64,000 nt of DNA from Hexactinellida sp. DTS-2022 (taxonomy: Eukaryota > Porifera > Hexactinellida): positions 2,914,001-2,978,000 of the forward strand of contig JAPNXP010000014.1 in the NCBI GenBank assembly GCA_028753945.1, read 5' to 3'. The notes beneath the pieces were generated by a model. The model ran no database searches. It was given only the letters and a program-made list of their open reading frames with translations, and had not been told where the DNA came from. Position numbers and translations under genes: made by a program. Below, piece after piece: positions 13,243-41,155 of the stretch (position 1 is the stretch's first letter; the number at the start of each line of letters is the position of its first letter).

Positions 13243-14399
13243 ATGCCCAAACAAGTGGAACGTGCTACTGAAAGTTCTGCTGACAAGATGAGGAGAATAC
13301 GGAATGTTGAAACTAATGACGAGCGACTCCTTCGATTGCAACAGATGCGTGATAAGAGACTGTTGCGTTTTCGAATCCAGAGCCCCAAATATACACGAGA
13401 CGTCTCCAATAGCAGTGCAAGCGTAATATACTTACCTTGCGAAAAGAGACGCCAAACACGAGAAAGCCAGGATACGAGCTATCGTTTCTCGGCAGGGCTC
13501 ACGTTTGCTATATGAGACTCCCAAGAAGAGAGTTGCACGTTGCCTTGATCTCCAGGATAGACAGGCATCTCGGCTGAGTAAGGAGACGGACGATGAGCGC
13601 GAAGTAGTCTTACTGATCTCCAGGATAGACAGGTCTCTCGGCACAGTATGGAGACGACGAGGAGCGGGAGGTTCGTCTGACTGATAAACGAGAGCGAAAT
13701 GCATCTCGGCTCGGTAAGGAGACGGACGAGGAGCGCGAAGTCCGTCTTATTGATAAGCGAGAGCGACAGGCCTCTCGGCTGAGTAAAGAGACGAACGAGG
13801 AGCGCGAAGTTCGTATTACTGATAAGCGAGAGCGACAGGCCTCTCGGCTGAGTAAGGAAACGGACGAGGAGCGCGATGTCCGTATTACTGATAAGCGATA
13901 ACGAAAGGCTGAGTTGTATGCTAAGAGGGTTAAATCCCGGATTGCTCTAAACTATGCCAGAGGCCAAATTGCCTCTGATGTTCCAGATTGTATTGTACAA
14001 GAATATACAGTTGGCAGTTTGACTTATAGCTGCTCTGTTTGTCTGGCAAAGTTTTGGGAAAGTGAAAAGCTATCGGGTAGAACTAAGTTTCGTTACAAGT
14101 TCCCGTTATGCTGTGGGGATGGGAAGGTAGTTCTACCCTCTATAGCTTCACACCCTGACCTCTTGATGCACCTCCTGACTGCTGCTGACCCGCGTGGAAG
14201 AGCGTTTCGAAATCAAATCAGAGCATACAAATCCGCTCTGGCGTTTGCTTCTCTTGGAGTGAATTTCGACAAGGGTCTGGATAATGCTAAGGAGGGGGTG
14301 TACACATTCCGCATACACGGAGTAGTGCACCATTTGATCGGACAGCTGATGCCTCGACAAGGCGAGGCACCCTACTTTGCGGCAGATCTATATTCATGA
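13243..14399 (+). pseudogene. Helitron replicase N-terminal region
   Basis: The start at 13243 (MPKQVERATESS) opens a basic, charged region. It is followed by degenerate 23-residue repeats and then an open frame at 13914-14399 with CSVCLAKFWESEKLSG and the conserved Helitron N-terminal block around YTFRIHGVVHHLIGQLMP. Further frames to 14900 (LPELKGLQFMLHDYNAYVSFF) continue it after a frameshift. The repeats introduce stops, so the reading frame is no longer continuous. Confidence 0.85.
13563..13907 (+). repeat. Five 69-bp tandem coding repeats in the Helitron N-terminus
   Basis: Each unit encodes about 23 residues on the pattern SRLSKETDEEREVRLTDKR. The last three units are well preserved, while the first two carry indels and an insertion of CTCCAGGATAGACAG-like sequence. 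Charged repeats of this kind are usual at Helitron N-termini. Confidence 0.8.
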
Positions 14400-14919
14400 T
14401 GGTACTCCTGAGGCTGAGCTGGAGATCCGTCAGCGGAATTTAGGAGAGGCTTCTCTTCCTGAGTTGAAAGGGTTACAATTTATGCTGCATGATTATAACG
14501 CATATGTCTCTTTCTTTAGAAAGGGAGTAGATCTGATGCGAGAGCAGGGGGGCTGAAGTGAGAATGATTATCCGAGCAGAAGGTGCTCCGTTCCTCGAAG
14601 TTACAATGCGCTTACAGCCCCTGAAGTAGCTGTTGTCATCCCAAGTTACTACTATGGAGAGGAGGATGCCAACAGAGTCATAGTGTTGCACGCACACAGG
14701 CGGTCTTCAGCGTATAACAGAGACTCACCGCGCTTATGATGCACTACATTATGTCTTCCTCTTTCCTTTAGGTGAGGATGGCTGGCAGCTGAAAAATCCT
14801 CACGCTCGAGGTAAGGGTTCTGTCACCGCTATGGAGTACTATTCATTCCGTCTGATGATCAGGGAAAAGAAAGTCCACTGCATCTCTGTGGTAGACTCTT
14901 CCATCAGTTAGCTGTTGAT

Positions 14920-15779
14920 ATGTATGCCAAGCTAGAACAGCAGAGGCTGAATTACATCAAGATGAACCAGCAGCAGATTCGAGTGGATTTTTACTGTGGG
15001 TTGTCTGATGCAGTCGCTTCAGGTGATACAGACTCAAGAGAACTGGGACGTAAGATAGTCCTTCCTTTTTCCTACACTGGTAGTACTCGACAAATGTTTG
15101 AGTTGTACCAGGATGCGATAAGTATAGTCAGGAAATATGGTAAACCAGACTTATTCATTACATTTACGTGTAATCCGAAATGGGAGGAGATTACTTCTGC
15201 TCTACTATTAAATCAGAAAACGAGCGATCGTCCTGATTTGATAGTCGAGTCTTCAGATTGATGTTGCGAGAATTACTTCGGGATATTACGATAAAGCATG
15301 TACTGGGCAAACCACTAGCGCATGTGTATACCATTGAATTCCAGAAGCGTGGTCTGCCTCACGCTCACATTCTTATTATACTCACTGACCGGGATAAGCC
15401 TAGAGACCCGCTTGAGTATGATCGAATTATTTGTGCTGAGCTTCCGGACCCTAATCTGCAACCTAGACTGCACTCTATCGTTAGACGCTGTATGATGCAT
15501 GGTCCATGTGGTGTAGCAAAAAAGAGTGCTCCTTGCTTAAGGGACGGGAAGTGCTCTAAGAAATACCCAAAGGCATTTTCAGCAATTACAACAACTGCTG
15601 AAGATGGCTACCCCATGTATCGTCGTAGAGACAATGGCCGTGCTGTTAATGTGGGCGGGGCTAAGCTTTATAATAGGTGGGTAGAACCATACAATCCCTA
15701 TCTGTCATTGAAGTTTAATGCTCATATTAACGTGGAAATATGTAGTACAGTGAATTCTGTTAAGTACCTGTACAAGTAG
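14920..15779 (+). pseudogene. Helitron Rep (HUH nuclease) domain
   Basis: Two overlapping frames (14920-15261 and 15258-15779) give the rolling-circle replication initiator. PDLFITFTCNPKWEEI is followed by the HUH motif in FQKRGLPHAHILIIL (about 15340-15385) and a Cys-rich RRCMMHGPCG segment. The domain ends KYLYK, then a TAG stop, then VYKGHNRAVV. Relatives usually have a Tyr at the stop position, as part of the two-tyrosine active site, so the stop removes a likely catalytic residue. The frameshift at 15258 is a second lesion. Confidence 0.88.
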
Positions 15780-15805
15780 GTGTACAAGGGACACAATAGA
15801 GCAGT

Positions 15806-15970
15806 TGTTGAATTCAAATCAGGCAGTGAGACTGTGGAAACTGCTGACACCAAGCGTGTTGATGAATTCAAATCGGGCAGCAAGACTGTAAAACTGCTGA
15901 CACCAAGCGTGTTGATGAAGTCAAATCAGGTAGTGAGACTGAAAACTGCTGACACCAAGCGTGTTGATGA
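15806..15970 (+). repeat. 52-53-bp tandem repeats within the Helitron Rep-helicase linker
   Basis: GCTGACACCAAGCGTGTTGA recurs at 15843, 15896 and 15948, each preceded by a diverged AAATCAGGCAGTGAGACTG segment. The unit length is not a multiple of three, so each added copy shifts the reading frame. It lies between GHNRAVVEF and EISNYLEGRYVSATEA, which are adjacent in other Helitrons. Confidence 0.85.
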
Positions 15971-16214
15971 AATATCGAACTATTTGGAGGGTCGGTATGT
16001 TTCTGCTACAGAGGCGATTTACCGTATCTTTGCATGAGATCTCCATGCTACTGCCGCATGTGTTGAGGTTAGCTGTACATCAGGAGAATCAGCAGCCGGT
16101 ATATTTTTCTGAGGAGACTGAACTCAAAGGATGCATTGAGTAAACAGCGGCACACTACTCTGACTGCATGGTTTGTAGCAAACCAAACTTTCCAAAGCGC
16201 TAGGGATATAACTC

Positions 16215-18240
16215 ATGACAAATTTCCCTGATAAATTTGTGTGGGATAAATCTGAGCGTAAATGGAAACTAAGGGTAAAGGGACATGGTATCATGATTGG
16301 CCGGATGTATTTTGCACATCCAGTGGAAGGAGAACGTTTCTTTTTAAGAATTCTCCTCAACCATGTTACAGGATGTACAAGCTTTCAGGACATCCGAACT
16401 CTTGCTGATGGTACTGTGTATAAAACCTATAAGGAGGCCGCACGCAGTCTTGGATTGTTGGAGGATGATAATGAGTTAGATGAGTGTTTAACAGATGCAG
16501 CTGCTTCTGCAATGCCCCCGCAGATGCGCTACTATTTGTCACTATCCTCCTGTTCAATGTACCCACTGAACCTTTGGGAGAACCATAAGGCCTCTCTAGC
16601 TGAGGACTTTCTACTTCGCGCTAAGCTGTCTGTTCCTGATGTCCAATTGGATGAGCATATACTTAATAGTGTATTGCTGGATATTGAACAACGCTTAGAG
16701 AAGCATGGAAAGTCTCTTTCGGATTTTCCCGGCATGCCAATGTCTGGGAATATTCGAAATCGATATGAAGAACCGAGAATCATTCAGGATGAACTTGATT
16801 TATGTGAAGTGATCAGTTAGAGCGATTCCAAACCGGTGCTAACCTACTGAATGCAGACCAACTGATTGTATTTAACACTATCATGACAGCCGTGGATGAT
16901 TCTCATGTTTATCCTAAGGTGTTCTTCATCGACGGACTTGGCGGTACAGGAAAGACATTCCTTTACAATACTCTGTTAGCTAGGGTCCGATCGAGGGGGG
17001 AGATTGCCGTAGCTATGGCTTCTTCGGGAATAGCGGCGCTCCTCTTAAATGGTGGTAGAACAGTCCATTCCAGGATGAAAATTTCTCTTTCAACCAATGA
17101 GTACTCTGTCTGTAACATTACTAAACAAAGTGCGCTTGCTAGACTCATTCAGCGCTCAACTCTCTCGGTTTGTGATGAGGCTCCAATGTCACATAAGCAT
17201 GTCGCCGAGTGTATGGATCGTACTTTTAGAGATCTGTGCTCTTGCGAACTACCATTTGATGGCAAGGTTATCGTGTTTGGAGGTGATTTTCGTCAAATCC
17301 TACCTGTTCTTAAACGGGCAAGCAGGGGTGAAGTTGTGTCAGCGTATCTGAACAGATCGCCTCTCTGGCGTCATGTTAAGGTAATGCAATTGACTATTAA
17401 TATGCGCCTGCAGAAATTATGCTCCCAGGATACGATTGAGGTCAGTGAGTTCTCTGACTTTCTCCTGAGGGTAGTGGAAGGCACTGAGCCAGAGGATGAG
17501 AATCAAATGATTCACATTGGCAATAAATTTGTAGTTCCGGGGGATCATGATTCTGACTGGTTTACACCGTTTATGGTGACATTGTGAACAATTATCTTGA
17601 TCAGAAGTTCATGTGTCAGCGCATCATTATGTCTCCAAAGAATGAGACAGATGATGTCATCAATGATTACGTCATGGGACTGATACCTGGAGATGCTGAT
17701 ACCTTTTGAGTGCTGATTCAGTTGATGATACTCAGGCTGTTATGTATCCGACTGAGTTCCTTAATACACTTAGTCCTAATGGTATGCCTCCTCATCGACT
17801 AATCCTGAAAAGGTTCGCATCTATTATTATATTGCGCAGTCTTGATCCTACGCAGGGTTTGTGTAATGGGACTTGCTTAACTGTGAGATCTGTTTGCAAA
17901 AGGCTGATAGATGCTGAGATTGCCACAGGTAGTCATGTGGAAATTCGAGTATAAATTCCCCGCATACCACTCCATACTCCAACTGATTCCGGCTTTCCGT
18001 TTGTTTTGAAGCGAAGGAAGTTCCCGGTGCGTCCTGCTTTCTGCATCACTATAAACAAGGGCCAGGGTCAGAGTTTAGAGACTGTCGGTATTTCTTACCC
18101 TCTCCTGAAGCCATATTCAGCCATGGTAAACTTTATGTGGCTCTGAGTCGAGTTCATAATCCTAGAGGTTTGAAGATGTGGAGGGAAGGAATCTGTCGGC
18201 GGTGGGGAGTTGGTTAAGAATGTCGTATATGGGGAGGTTT
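16215..18240 (+). pseudogene. Helitron Pif1-family helicase domain
   Basis: The frame at 16215-16820 carries the linker block HPVEGERFFLRILLNHVTG. The frame at 16883-17587 has Walker A (GLGGTGKTF), Walker B (CDEAPM), FGGDFRQILPVLKR and the INMRLQ motif of SF1 Pif1-type helicases. Later motifs appear in other frames: LDPTQGLCNGTCL (17840-17880), [18 protein letters not shown] (18035-18090) and [13 protein letters not shown] (18117-18155). Frameshifts and a stop at 17587 break the protein. The domain unwinds DNA during rolling-circle transposition. Confidence 0.9.
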
Positions 18241-18405
18241 TGCTAACTCGGGTAGAGAAACCTCTGTCATCCTGCCTGGATCTGATTAGTTCGCATTCGC
18301 AGGATGCATCGATCTTATCCTCTCACGGCGTCCCTGTATTCTCGCCTTTTAAGAGAGGCTTGACGGGTGAGTATAATGAGAGGGAGAGTAAAGTGTCTAA
18401 GATAG

Positions 18406-19071
18406 TTGAGTTCAGTCATAGTGATGATAATTATTGAGTTAGAGGAGTTACCAGAGTGTATTCTTTCGAGCGATGACATTTCTCAATGTTCAACTCATAA
18501 TCTCTTATGTGAGCTTATTAGGTTTCCTAGAGATATGACTGATGATTCGGGCATCACTTCGGTAAACAAATTTACTCTCGCGATGCGACTCAATCTAGCC
18601 CAATCTATTGGGTTAGGTTCCGAGGAGATATTACCGAATCGGGAAGAGCTTTCAATACGTGGAACATCCTTGCGTTATTATTCATCACTCGCGACAAAAC
18701 TGTGTGATAAATTTGGAATTGGATTCCATTTGTGTCCAGTTTATGGTGATTGTAACTGTCTATACCGAGCTCTATCTCATATCATTTTTGGTAACGAGAG
18801 GTCGCATCATATTCTTAAACAATGTTTGATCTGTAAGTTTGAGGCTAATCCACAGCATTATCTTAATGTGATGGGCAGATCAGGCATATTGAGTGAACAG
18901 GACCTCCACTGTCATATAGATCGAATTAGATCTCGAAATGAGTGGGGTACTAACACTGAGTTGAATATGATTGGGGCTTTAGCTCGGATAGACGTGGTGT
19001 CAATTGACGCAACTGATGTTGATGAACATTTGGAGCTTCCGTTAGAATGTGATCCAATCTATGAAGGTTAA
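18406..19071 (+). pseudogene. OTU-type cysteine protease domain of the Helitron
   Basis: A 221-residue frame contains FGIGFHLCPVYGDCNCLYRALSHIIFG. It matches the OTU catalytic block, with Asp and Cys in GDCNCLYRAL. HCHIDRIRSRNEWGTNTELNM agrees with the conserved middle of OTU domains, where a GxxWGxxxEL pattern is usual. The expected C-terminal His segment is not clear: the frame stops at 19071, and the next bases read IYHRIDHQIG in the same frame after the stop. OTU domains are a known accessory of animal and plant Helitrons. Confidence 0.82.
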
Positions 19072-22189: not shown

Positions 22190-22257
22190 CAACCGAAAAG
22201 CGGTTGTTGTGTGGATGTGTTCTGTCGCAATGCGACCTAGCGAGCGAAGAGCGCTAG
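22190..22257 (+). repeat. Helitron 3' terminal hairpins and CTAG end
   Basis: CCACACAACAACCG and CGGTTGTTGTGTGG form a strong stem with an AAAAG loop. A shorter stem GTCGCA/TGCGAC follows, then AGAGCGCTAG. Hairpins of this type just before the CTRR end act as the Helitron terminator. Confidence 0.9.
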
Positions 22258-22798
22258 TTTGCTGTGAAGTATCTCACCGGCAATACAAACTTGATACGAA
22301 ATCTGAATCGGTTTGGCCACGGTGTCTCCTATTCACAAGTTGAGGAGATTGACACGGCAAGTGTCTCTAGAAACAAGACCTCTCGATGGAATATGTGCCA
22401 CTTCCAGAAAATGTCTACCCAGGTGTAGTCACAACATTGGCATGGGACAATATTGGTCGTCTTGAAGAGACAAGTGGATAGGGGAGCTGTCATCGAGTCA
22501 ATGGAATTGTTGTTCAGCCAAAAGTTCTCCAGAAAAGTACACCAGCAATGTCTAAACATAGAAGCATCCCTACCATAATTGCAGTCAGCCTACAACGTCG
22601 GCCCCGGACTGGACCACTAAAGATTGAGACATTGGATGTTGACACTAGGAACTAGGTCTAGGAGGAAAAAATGAAGAACTTTGTCTGGTTGCTTGCATGC
22701 ATGTCCAACCCTGAGAATCAGACAATCAGCACTTCGACAGGCTTTAACATCCAGATCAGGGATAATGTGGTTGTGATTCAGAACACTGTGAGCTACCT
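22258..22798 (+). pseudogene. Transposon-derived gene, segment 2
   Basis: It continues the frame left at 11131 with FAVKYLTGNTNLIRNLNRFG and HGVSYSQVEEIDTA. After frameshifts it reads LPENVYPGVVTTLAWDNIGR, then IIAVSLQRRPRTGPLKIETL and NFVWLLACMSNP, ending NTVSYL at 22798 where the Transib/RAG-like element is inserted. These blocks appear in this order in the uncharacterised family of which segment 1 is the N-terminus. Confidence 0.75.
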
Positions 22799-23085
22799 CA
22801 CAGTGGTCTAAAATGGCAAATCAGGAGAAATCGCTATAAAAGCCATTCTAAACCTTTTTTAGACATCCTAAACCTATTATTGTTGAATAGTAAATCAACC
22901 ACGAGAAATCCAATGATTACCTAAAAAACAGTGTATGACTTCAATTTTTCGAGTTATGACGTAATCACTTTATATATTATTAATATTAATTTCTCAAATT
23001 TGGTTGAGTTAATTTTTAATGCTGCCAAGTTATAGAGGTATACATAGTATTGTATTTATATGCAACTATAAAGATATTACATGAA

Positions 23086-25161
23086 TTATTCTCTAATTAA
23101 CCTCAAGAATAGCTCATCATTCGTTAGATGACCGGTTTTTTGTTTTTGTTTGAGTTCTATGTTTTTCCTCTGTAAGAATGAAACATAATTACTCTGACAG
23201 AGGAGACGCACGAACACATCGCGGATATTATCCTCGAAGTTTGTTTTTCGTGCCAATAACTCGCGGTATCTTCTTATGTGCTTGTTGCACGATTCCAGGC
23301 CTTCTTCGGAAAACGCTTTCATTCCTCTTCCTTCATTAAATCTTGACATTAATTCTACTGAGTGAGCCAAAATCTTATGGAGCGTTGGTGTGACATTGGC
23401 CCAAGAAAAGTGATCAATGATAAGTTGGTAAGTGTCCTTGCAATGAGTTTCTAATGTTTCCTCGTTAATAGTATTGTCGCTGTTGTAAATCCTGAGAATG
23501 ACACCAAGATTCGAGTGAATGGTGGTAAACGACTGTCTGCAATCATTCGGTAACAAGGTCACAACCCATCGGAGATAACTATTTGTTTCATCGCACTTTC
23601 CAGAAAAACACTGCCTTGCCACGTTTCCAGTGGTTGATGTTCCCCCTTGACTATTTGGAAAGTCGATCCTAATTCCCGTTTTCTCTTGTAAGAAATCGCG
23701 AACAAATGCTTTAGAAGTTTCGATTTTGGAAGACGTAGGTGACGATTTTCTTACTCCTGCATGAAGATTCATCAACCAAGAAAATATTCTAATGTATCCG
23801 TGTAATGGAGAGGCTGGTAAGATATCGATTGTTGAAATTGGTCTGTGAGTAATATTGAATCGTTTCGAAGGATGTCTGGCCAAAAACTCATCTTCGTCTA
23901 CCTCAAGAAATATCTCCTTTGCTAGTTGGATGCTTCGATTAATGGGGAACCCGTGTTGGATTAAATACCTGTCTTTTAATTGTTCTCTCGTAGCGGTACA
24001 TAAGTGACAAGCCGCTCCACCGGCACCATCCAGAATACCTGCCATTTTAGTATCGAACATAGCTCGTTCAACCCTCACGTTTCATTTCCCTTGGGGAAGC
24101 TCAAATCCGTTCGTTTGAATGTATTCCGTTTCAAAATTAATGTTCTCCATTAGAAAGCGTACGTTATCTTCATTTTCTGGGACTGCAAATAATGACAAAG
24201 GACGCACAGCAAAAGGAGAGTTAGGTACGGGATTTTTCCAAATTATTTCCTTTGTATTATCCGTAATGTGTATTATTCGGAAACAAAATAAAAGGAATGT
24301 TTTAGTTGAGATATCAGGATGTTCTTGCAATTGGTTGTAGAGTCTGTGACAACCAGATCCATCTAAGCCATCAACTATTGTTATATTAATTGGGTAACGG
24401 GCATTTTGAAGGCTTTCGTCAAATTCGACCAGTTGGTGCACTGTGATGGCGAGTAAATCTCTATAAGGTATCGTGATTCCTATAGGATGGTTTAATTTGG
24501 TCACAATTTGGAGTTCGTTTAATAAATTAACCTTTGAACGGAAGAGGCTAAGCTTATTATAGGAAGATAAAATTACATTCTCCGATTTCAAGAAGCGTCG
24601 AAATTCGGTATACTTTCTCCTCCCTATAGATAAGAAATCGAGAAGAAATGAGCAATTAGATTTACTCAGTTCACGACTAGAGGAGCCAAAAGTACCAGTT
24701 TCGACTATTTCTTTGCAAAAATCTGACACCGTATAATCCTTCTCGTCGTTTGAAATAAGCTGCAAAAGTAAGGCAGCTACTTGTTTTGCAGAGATTTTTT
24801 CAATTTCGGCATAATCTCGAACACAGTCCAAGAGACTTGACATTCTGTTTCTCTGATGCTTTACAGAACATTCAAGCAAGGGCTTCAATCGAGAACTAGG
24901 CTTTTCTCCTAGATCTGAAGAAGTAGCAGTTACTGTGCATGTATGTGCAATAGATGGGCCGAAGAAGCCAAGTTTCCAAGCTTCGAGTGTTTGTCTTTTT
25001 CTGCATACTTCTCTCTCTCTTAGTAACGCCACAAATTTCATTCGGTAATGGTCAAAATACTCGTCTTGAACAGAACATTGTGCCATGAACTTACGAGTCA
25101 AGGAACTAAGGTTTTCAGAATCATTCTCTTTCAAAAAGGTGTACACTTTGTTATTGTCCAT
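23086..25161 (-). CDS. RAG1/Transib-family transposase with one in-frame TGA
   Basis: One minus-strand frame of 692 codons starts MDNNKVYTFL at 25161 and ends at 23086. It is interrupted only by a TGA at 24084-24082. Candidate catalytic residues in family order are Asp267 (VDGLDGSGCHRLY, compare RAG1 D600), Asp370 (AMFDTKMAG, compare D708) and Glu623 (SEEGLESCNK, compare E962). A zinc site is formed by Cys385/Cys388 (ACHLCTAT) and His595/His600 (HKILAH). The blocks IIWKNPVPNSP and TGNVARQCF match family-wide motifs. Length is Transib-like (about 700 residues) and there is no RING region, while HKILAH and GLESCNK look closer to RAG1. Activity would need read-through or another copy. Confidence 0.88.
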
Positions 25162-25789
25162 GAGTCTTGTAATTTCTATTCATAATGTAACATTTATTAA
25201 CAAACCATAAAATTATATTTTGTCAAATATAAGTGAGATTTTCGGTGATTGGGCTTACTCTTAGCCTATTTTTAAGATTGTTTGCGGGTACCTGCGGGTA
25301 TAAATATATTTTTAATTACTAGAATAGATATATAACTAATAATTTATGTTGGTATTACGCTTCTCAATTCACTTCAATTTGAGATTTTGCTCTCTGATTA
25401 CCTGAAAATTAGTTAGATTAATACAACTGATTGGAAAATTTGAACAGCTCATAATAGGTTTAATAAGCAAATAAATCTGCAAGAAATTATTAATATCGAA
25501 TAAAGGAGAAAAAATGCATTCTAAATATGTTTACACTTTGCATTCACTATTTATAGAAAGTAACCTGGAGATTGGAATAGTCAATGGTATTTTGATAGAC
25601 ATCATTTTACACTGTAACTCAATATCATAGTCATGACTTCAGTCGAGTGTATCGGAATGTAACCACACTCAATTTTCAAAATCAATGCATTTTTCTAGGT
25701 TTACAACAATGCAGAATTTTATGAAGCTAAAATTACCCAAAACAAGTGATGTCAAAATTTCGAATTTTTCTCCTGGTTTGACCACTGTG
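25162..25789 (-). promoter_or_regulatory. 5' flank and right terminal repeat of the Transib/RAG-like element
   Basis: This is 628 bp between the transposase start and the element end, AT-rich, with no convincing frame. The terminal 23 bp read inward as CACAGTG, a 7-bp spacer and CAGGAGAAA. It presumably holds the promoter and a transposase binding site; I see no specific promoter motif. Confidence 0.5.
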
Positions 25790-25980
25790 TACCTGCCAAC
25801 AATTAATGCTCCCGCTACAGCTATGTCTACTGTAAATGAAGTTCTGAACCAAACACTCAACATCATGAAGTCCCTGTACCTGAACCAAATTGTCTGTATG
25901 TTTGACTAAGCATTGTATGCTAAGACTGCAGAGTTAGTGTGGAAGCAAGACAAATACAAGAACATTATCATAAGGACTGG
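25790..25980 (+). pseudogene. Transposon-derived gene, segment 3
   Basis: The frame reads YLPTINAPATAMSTVNEVLN, then IVCMFD, a TAA stop, and ALYAKTAELVWKQDKYKN, ending IIIRTG at 25980. In relatives the stop position is Gln (FDQALYAKA), so one base change made the stop. The sequence is cut at 25980 by the 10.4-kb composite and resumes at 36340. Confidence 0.75.
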
Positions 25981-26199
25981 CCATAGCATTCTAATATACT
26001 AAGGCAATGGCACTTAGGTTTTTTAATTTACACTACATAGTTAATAGATTCATGAAATAAATATTTAAACACAATGAGCTAAGTGTAACAATAAACAACA
26101 TTATAGAGTCTCTCTGTAAAGTATGAGATTAGGAGTGAAACTTGTATTTGCAGTATAATTCGTCAGAGGAACTCTCCATTTAACAAACATCTTATAGAG

Positions 26200-39901: not shown

Positions 39902-41155
39902 TTAGCTTCGACCTTGAATAGCAGCACCTGTCTGCTTTGCAATCTGTTCTTTGAGTAAAATAATACTTTGTCTTTGTTCAGCAGTTAGTTGAGCGATTTG
40001 TTCATCAGTAAGAGCCAATACTTGAAGAATTAAAGATGTTTTCTCTTCTTGAGTAATTGAGCTAATATTAGTTGCCTTATCAGTACTTGCGGGATCTCTA
40101 TTAAGGTCTGAGAAACCTACAATGTGTTGGGGTTTATGATTAATTGTATGTCGCAATTCTATTCCCGTTGAAAGAGAACTTGGCAGTTCACCATGCGTCA
40201 AAGCTTTACGAGGATCATGAGGTGCGTCACATCTAAGGCCTTGACTGAGAATATTTGGTTGAATATATGGATTAGATAACCGTGTGTCAATTCTAATATC
40301 AGAATTTGTTATAGGAATATTTTGAGCTAAACTTTCAAAGTTTTTCGATGGTGTGTCCAGTAAAGGGATATTTTTTACTGGGTTTTCTCGAAGAGTGTCG
40401 GTTAGAGGTTTCAGTGGTAATGTTTGTGAGAGCCTAGTAAAATTAACGGAACTAGGCCTATTCTGAGAAGATACATTTAATACTTTGATGTCTTGAATTG
40501 TTCTAGGATCTTGAGGTCCGTGGGGAGGGCGAATATCATCTATAGGGTGGTGTTGTAATTGAAAATTAACTTCCTGGGGTATATCTTGACTAAAATTTCG
40601 ATGAGCAGAATGGTTTGATTTAACCATGTTCAAGTCTGTATTAGACATATAAGGAGTACCAGGATTAAAACTACTTTGACGGTATTCATAATGTGGTTCA
40701 TTATGATGTTCAGATTGACGGGTTGAATATTCTGTGAGGTAGACATCTTGATGACTCATTATATCAACAGGATGAGGGTTTTCAACTATATCATTGAAAT
40801 TAGGAACAGCGATTCGTGGTTTATGTAAGAAGTCATGAGCTTGATGTGGGTCTACAATACGCATAACAACTTGAGCCTGAAGTAATGCATATGGAAGTTG
40901 TGGATTATGTAATAGTAGTTGACGAGCTTCTTCAGGTTGATGCATTATAAATAACTTCATCTGTTTCATTAGTTCAAACATTTGTTCAGGAGGTAAAGAA
41001 GCAACAGCTTTTGTGATTTCTTCAGGTGCATTTTCAGGAGGAACAATGGGTCCAAACAAATTAGATTCAATGCTTGAAGAAGTTCCAGCAATTTTTCCGC
41101 TTTTCAGATCATCTTTAGATGAAGCTGGTGCAATTCTAAGATTTCGACCACAAAC
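39902..41155 (-). CDS. CSTF2: Cleavage stimulation factor subunit 2 (CstF-64), last exon
   Basis: The exon runs from a splice acceptor at about 41155 (TTTTTTAG before it on the minus strand) to the stop at 39902. It opens with the end of the RRM (CGRNLRIAPASS). The hinge domain follows (ITKAVASLPPEQMFELMKQM, then NPQLPYALLQAQVVMRIVDP), which binds CSTF3/symplekin. A low-complexity Pro/Gln/Asn/His-rich middle then leads to the conserved C-terminal three-helix domain (ALTDEQIAQLTAEQRQSIIL), which binds Pcf11-type factors. The protein works in nuclear pre-mRNA 3'-end processing by binding GU-rich downstream elements. The RRM exons must lie further right on the minus strand; I could not find them in the window. 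It has no stops and appears functional. Confidence 0.95.
   Translation of the reverse strand, partial: VCGRNLRIAPASSKDDLKSGKIAGTSSSIESNLFGPIVPPENAPEEITKAVASLPPEQMFELMKQMKLFIMHQPEEARQLLLHNPQLPYALLQAQVVMRIVDPHQAHDFLHKPRIAVPNFNDIVENPHPVDIMSHQDVYLTEYSTRQSEHHNEPHYEYRQSSFNPGTPYMSNTDLNMVKSNHSAHRNFSQDIPQEVNFQLQHHPIDDIRPPHGPQDPRTIQDIKVLNVSSQNRPSSVNFTRLSQTLPLKPLTDTLRENPVKNIPLLDTPSKNFESLAQNIPITNSDIRIDTRLSNPYIQPNILSQGLRCDAPHDPRKALTHGELPSSLSTGIELRHTINHKPQHIVGFSDLNRDPASTDKATNISSITQEEKTSLILQVLALTDEQIAQLTAEQRQSIILLKEQIAKQTGAAIQGRS

Follow-up and report, generated by a model that had tools for sequence, protein, structure and literature searches.

A decayed, RAG2-free Transib-type transposon with unequal ends and its relatives in a glass sponge genome

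The Transib transposons were divided by Tao et al. (2022; PMC9435367) into Subgroup II, which holds most known members including HzTransib, and Subgroup I, whose members always have asymmetric ends, retain the α11–α12 segment, carry a CTT1 tail and were proposed as possible RAG intermediates. RAG2-free Transibs of this build have thus already been published, while, according to the same study, a nonamer-binding domain (NBD) is seen in both subgroups and asymmetric ends also occur in some members of Subgroup II. The origin of the 12/23 rule is an open question, and a passage of the hypothesis paper PMC8355894 ties the recognition of end asymmetry to RAG2. Here, we describe a transposon of the Transib/RAG1 kind in a 64,000-nt stretch of DNA (contig JAPNXP010000014.1, positions 2,914,001 to 2,978,000) from the glass sponge Hexactinellida sp. 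DTS-2022, the assembly of which comprises 112.4 Mb in 18 contigs. The whole stretch is called the window, and coordinates are positions within it unless a contig is named. We read the element as a decayed autonomous Transib copy of largely Subgroup I build, without RAG2, from a large and recently active glass sponge family that would move by the mechanism outlined below, and we put the probability of this reading at roughly 70%.

Both termini of the element read CACAGTG and are flanked by a perfect TACCT duplication, in line with a preliminary description of this DNA. The same description held that removal of the element exactly restores the host frame, and excision in silico of the element together with one TACCT indeed yielded an uninterrupted run of that frame. 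Stronger evidence for an exact insertion came from three paralogous empty sites: the receiving sequence (22200–22798 and 25795–26100) belongs to a repeat of which at least three more copies exist at 90–92% identity, and those on contigs C13, C2 and C1 are unbroken across the site, each with a single TACCT. When the element DNA was used as a query, at least 66 matches were obtained in the genome, with the best 40 of 59 candidates scored. An exact 5-bp duplication flanked all 14 copies of the window family in which both ends were readable. Thirteen of these duplications were read at one locus each and one (L004 with L024) across the two sides of a later insertion; they represent 13 different sequences, since AAGTA is common to two copies, the flanks of which are nevertheless unlike. 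These matches and duplications confirmed that the window element is a real transposon insertion and not a chance arrangement. Two further loci, L003 and L026 (G000 C1, ∼41 kb apart), are opposite-orientation parts of seemingly one element, as if split by an inversion; CGGAA seems to be kept on both sides, but this was read by eye through a missing base and was left out of the count.

The element carries one long minus-strand DDE frame, which had been described as having about 690 codons. It comprises 691 codons with a single TGA at codon 360, and it lacks four residues found after WLMN in relatives. On account of this TGA and the missing residues, the window copy is a dead autonomous copy. All seven residues assigned beforehand, namely D267, D370, E623, C385, C388, H595 and H600, were recovered at those positions. 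The locus thereby shows the traits of the Transib superfamily, a DDE transposase of RAG1/Transib fold with zinc-site cysteines and histidines, where the RAG1/HzTransib fold was predicted on the intact relative P0003. An NBD fold of the RAG1 type is also predicted in the transposase; merely ∼87 residues precede it in the window protein, and a RAG1 N-terminal region is lacking. The GRP motif of the RAG1 NBD was found in none of the 52 proteins P0001–P0052, some of which are partial, and the N-terminal half alone as a query gave an unrelated esterase as the top match (E 0.11), ahead of HzTransib (E 0.24). The zinc-domain segment from CxxC to LH counts 66 residues in the window protein, as compared to 64 for mouse RAG1, 60 for BbRAG1L and 30 for HzTransib; its α11–α12 type is judged by length only. 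Neither a RING nor a RAG2-like frame was found in the window element, as had been noted before, and a second frame of at least 100 residues (from ATG) was absent from within all 11 elements with an uninterrupted gene. The genome-wide Pfam searches with RAG2 and RAG2_PHD were likewise without a match, but carry no weight since the controls were equally silent.

Comparison of the two ends of the window element gave the best match at a 9-bp shift (12 of 14 bases, a score reached by 15 of 2000 shuffles). Among the related loci L029–L058 (n = 30), 17 were recovered with both ends by a search that required CAC, similarity between the ends and a duplication mismatched at no more than one position. 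In 16 of them the duplication is exact and in L036 it has one mismatch, a count that is no proof of duplications because the search demanded them. Loci L034, L047, L048 and L058 have both heptamers with no duplication in register, and nine others show one end. All 33 non-redundant ends read CACAGTGG, eight of them having been found via the heptamer search itself. L031, which is sister to the window copy, was set aside; the remaining 16 two-ended elements could be compared in gene orientation, and the best inner match lay 9 or 10 bp deeper at the 3′ end in 13. The exceptions were L035 with a shift of 14 (10 in its sister L038), L032 with a tie between −2 and 9, and L056 with −1; counted by subfamily, in our own grouping, 10 of 12 follow the 9–10-bp plan. 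As good a match was reached by 0–15 of 2000 shuffles in seven elements, by 34–82 in four and by 224–1115 in five. Single elements are therefore often weak by this measure, and the strength of the two-spacer plan lies in the agreement between elements.

The second block has a consensus near GGAAATAGG (GGAARTAGG-like). Among hits scoring at least 7/9, it is separated from the heptamer by 10–11 bp at the gene-5′ end and by 20–21 bp at the gene-3′ end, except for L035 (7 bp at the 5′ end) and L050 (best-scoring hit elsewhere); the score was below 7/9 at both ends of L030, L032, L045 and L056, and at the 5′ end of L033. Genome-wide, the pattern CACAGTGG N{0,30} GGAARTAGG yielded 544 matches against 0 for the reversed pattern, which was the sole control. 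The 100 matches listed all lie on contigs 1 and 2; their spacers measure 10–11 bp in 37 cases, 19–21 bp in 61, and 15 and 27 bp in the remaining two. Adjacent inward-facing pairs within 5 kb were drawn from these 100 matches, with the 27-bp spacer taken as long. One short and one long spacer were combined in 20 of 21 pairs, as compared to 47% expected from the mix, although these odds are not a p-value since copies are not independent. The exceptional pair joins ends that resemble two different subfamilies. Together, these findings show that both ends share a heptamer and a second block, and that the block lies about one helical turn deeper on the 3′ side of the gene. Past the second block, an A-rich run ∼21 bp from the heptamer is seen in several gene-5′ ends, and TATTT in the gene-3′ ends. 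A vertebrate-type 12RSS (RSS, recombination signal sequence) showed no excess over the control: the nonamer ACAAAAACC at 12 bp gave 51 matches with at most two mismatches against 63 for the control, in a search of the 12-bp and not the 23-bp form.

Not all copies of the window family are long. Fifteen short copies that were fetched (L009–L023) have one deletion junction in common (element 411–414/2262), and nine of them diverge by 1.6 to 3.2% from their own consensus. This common junction suggests that the short copies spread once the deletion had arisen and were necessarily mobilized in trans. The long sister copies L002, L003 and L005/L006 carry stops or shifts. The frame of the sister copy L004 (L029) is open up to a 14.3-kb insertion, which interrupts it close to its end. 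This insertion splits the sister element (L024/L025, L068, L069; G000 C1:16849006–16863338), the junction element bases being a T run, and no frame of 200 residues was found in the first 9.9 kb of the insertion.

The window family is part of a wider radiation. A genome search with P0003 gave at least 66 matches, with the best 64 of 952 candidates scored, and nine of these run without a stop from residue 1 to at least residue 676, one being the insertion-cut copy L029. Several full-length frames are near-identical (pS 0 for L037/L039 and 0.011 for both L039/L041 and L040/L042), which indicates recent movement. Between subfamilies, pS was 0.69–0.75 and pN 0.33–0.54 in the 19 such pairs among the 25 printed, and the lower pN indicates that selection has maintained the protein. 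The genome thus houses a radiation of such RAG2-free elements that is large and was active recently. The RAG1 Pfam profile gave no strong match across the genome; its 33 weak matches (best 32.4 bits) lie in many cases in transposase frames also found with P0003. The highest of these scores belongs to L060 (G000 C2:3229125–3229787), a divergent, uninterrupted relative of 695 residues with a pN of ∼0.53 from the others, in which motif searches hit the E and missed the first two D motifs. With HzTransib as the query, 117 matches were obtained (best E 1.6e-19, top identity 38%), many in P0003-matched frames. Beyond this genome, nine of 53 related proteins carry a source-given organism name, and all nine are from the glass sponge Oopsacas minuta, so that the transposon relatives, too, point to a glass sponge as the probable host. 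Further protein searches, in which the best candidates were scored, returned mainly P0053-like and P0067-like groups plus the Patiria miniata protein P0069. Proteins P0067, P0073–P0075 and P0077–P0081 form a distinct group with an N-terminal GRP motif and, in most, a CCHC tail, and are possibly a better match to the published Subgroup I. Patterns derived from the family alignment detected no relatives in 78 pattern stretches from prokaryote contigs or 126 from viral contigs, a test outside which the published bacterial Transibs lie.

Table 1. Features of the transposon, as positions within the window
Feature	Position	Strand	Basis or remark
Whole transposon	22799..25789	minus (gene strand)	2991 bp; ends, copies, paralogous empty sites
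Target-site duplication TACCT, left	22794..22798	.	Only one TACCT in each of three paralogous empty sites
Target-site duplication TACCT, right	25790..25794	.	Perfect match to left copy
Heptamer CACAGTG, gene-3′ (long-spacer) end	22799..22805	plus	End reads and copies
Second conserved block, long-spacer end, AAATCAGGAGAAA	22818..22830	plus	End-to-end comparison
Heptamer CACAGTG, gene-5′ (short-spacer) end	25783..25789	minus	End reads and copies
Second conserved block, short-spacer end, AAACCAGGAGAAA	25767..25779	minus	End-to-end comparison
Transposase frame	23086..25161	minus	691 codons; in-frame TGA at 24082–24084
NBD-like fold, residues 88–154	24700..24900	minus	Predicted
Catalytic D267	24361..24363	minus	DGLDGSG aligned to RAG1 CDGMGD
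Catalytic D370	24052..24054	minus	Alignment and motif check
Catalytic E623 (EEGLESCNK)	23293..23295	minus	Sequence match and motif check
Zinc-site cysteines C385/C388	23998..24009	minus	Alignment and motif check
Zinc-site histidines H595/H600 (HKILAH)	23362..23379	minus	Sequence match and motif check
Span with its inner part absent from short non-autonomous copies	23209..25060	.	Junction element 411/2262, 15 copies (L009–L023)

Elsewhere in the window, a Helitron-like remnant lies on the plus strand at 13914–19071, with Helitron_like_N in 15258–15776 and a PIF1-type helicase in 16883–17584, and a piece of a host gene with the CSTF2 hinge and C-terminal domains lies on the minus strand at 39902–41059.

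In the mechanism that we propose, the catalytic core of a transposase dimer would grip both heptamers, nick at CAC, form hairpins on the flanks and insert the element with a 5-bp stagger. The NBD-like domain would touch the second block and, owing to the one-turn difference in spacer length, the complex would combine one short and one long end, in the manner of RAG with the 12RSS and 23RSS but without RAG2. Short copies without a transposase gene would be moved in trans. The contact of the NBD with the second block and the pairing of unlike ends go beyond cut-and-paste, and we infer them from the anatomy of the element. Such an uneven-ends design may have no need for RAG2. A bolder picture, which we regard as speculative and less likely than not, is that living glass sponges, an early-branching animal group, run hundreds of RAG2-free transposons of RAG1 fold. 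Their ends would bear the V(D)J heptamer plus a second element placed at either of two fixed distances that differ by one helical turn; the NBD would read this element and short would join only long, amounting to the coupled-spacer logic of V(D)J recombination without RAG2.

We file the element as a Transib and not as a RAG1L/RAG2L element. Its build matches Subgroup I of Tao et al., as drawn from the published description rather than from the sequences of those proteins, apart from the missing tail; hence the wording 'largely Subgroup I'. By sequence, the nearest solved relative is HzTransib (E 1.5e-10), with RAG1 reaching E 0.0028 at best. The preliminary suggestion that the protein is closer to RAG1 than a typical Transib stands for its build, as compared to the solved HzTransib chain, but not for its sequence. 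A 42-row tree, composed of 20 of the 52 clade proteins P0001–P0052 chosen for length, 19 proteins of other groups, HzTransib, BbRAG1L and mouse RAG1, placed the window protein in a clade of its own (100/100) with P0003 nearest. With respect to the deeper grouping, tests on a 21-row tree rejected neither the clade with RAG1 and RAG1L (p-AU 0.318) nor the clade with HzTransib (p-AU 0.267). In the free 21-row tree, HzTransib grouped next to the RAG rows (84/75, without a star), a placement flagged as possible long-branch attraction; the trees hold two RAG rows only, with long branches, and no named Subgroup I protein.

An alternative, which appears unlikely though it is the best survivor among the rivals, is that the window protein belongs to the RAG1-like lineage proper, as a clade sister to RAG1 plus RAG1L in which RAG2L was never present or was lost. 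The NBD fold, the zinc-domain segment of RAG1 length and the unrejected grouping with RAG1 and RAG1L speak for it, as does the heptamer, since CACAGTG is given as the RSS consensus in an excerpt of PMC8289069. On the other hand, these features in common may be ancestral, HzTransib is the nearer relative by sequence, the free trees keep the clade apart from the RAG rows, and none of the 11 elements whose gene is uninterrupted has a second frame reaching 100 residues. The earlier proposal of a RAG2-free RAG1-like lineage was accordingly retained as regards the lack of RAG2, the predicted NBD fold and the zinc segment, but not as regards descent with RAG1.

Less probable still is an ordinary Subgroup II-like Transib, in which the NBD match would reflect a common helical arrangement or the Subgroup II equivalent of the NBD, and the end asymmetry a frozen accident. 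Two points weigh here against the Subgroup I assignment. Firstly, the CTT1 (CCHC) tail, one of two features that separate the subgroups, is lacking in the window protein, P0002 and P0003; among the 32 clade proteins whose tail could be read, 17 have it. Secondly, the NBD and the asymmetric ends, on which we relied, do not separate Subgroup I from Subgroup II, and for this reason our confidence in a Subgroup I build was slightly reduced and that in the Subgroup II alternative slightly raised. The zinc-domain segment is more than twice as long as that of HzTransib, and no clear separate Subgroup II family was seen among the genome matches to HzTransib, the loci not having been sorted into a tree. 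Lastly, a domesticated or composite locus, for which it could be said only that the frame is nearly intact, can be dismissed in view of the duplications, the empty sites, the TGA, the many copies and the short non-autonomous derivatives.

Accepting a decayed Transib of largely Subgroup I build, we consider as new the group to which the host belongs and the two-spacer design with its quantification. Titles and abstract openings of the literature, a scope that leaves out subscription papers, Repbase and supplements, revealed no sponge Transibs and no pairing of Porifera with RAG1L or of Hexactinellida with RAG1. The genome papers on Oopsacas and Aphrocallistes mention neither RAG1 nor Transib in their main text, and the word sponge is absent from that of Tao et al. 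Some Oopsacas proteins are already named after RAG1 in public records, so that the presence in sponges is already in databases. Transibs of largely Subgroup I build are thereby extended to a sponge, and the numerous young elements, uninterrupted and RAG2-free, whose ends are unequal and for which an NBD fold is predicted, provide a ready system for asking whether the pairing of unequal ends preceded RAG2.

Compared to the known systems, the sponge element agrees with the Subgroup I Transibs (PMC9435367) in its RAG2-free single gene, asymmetric ends, NBD-like domain, zinc segment of RAG1 length, 5-bp duplication and the CCHC tail found in part of its clade; it differs in that the window protein itself has no such tail, in the lack of GRP in the NBD-like part and in the spacers of 10–11 and 20–21 bp. 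The solved HzTransib chain (PDB 6pqn, 6pqx) is without the first 160 residues, where the NBD fold would lie, and without ∼36 zinc-domain residues, and its ends are called symmetric in an excerpt of PMC8289069, whereas those of the sponge family are unequal. ProtoRAG of amphioxus (BbRAG1L-BbRAG2L; 6b40) has RAG2L, and the same excerpt gives its heptamer as CACTATG and its spacers as 27 and 31 bp. AanRAGL of Aureococcus (PMC9435367) also has RAG2L, as well as other end motifs, but has in common with the sponge family the bipartite ends, a 9-bp spacer difference (4/13) and the 5-bp duplication. With respect to vertebrate RAG1 and the 12/23 RSS, the sponge elements show no excess of the nonamer at 12 bp, no RAG2 frame and no RING, while the heptamer CACAGTG, the unequal spacers, the NBD fold (predicted here) and the catalytic core are the same.
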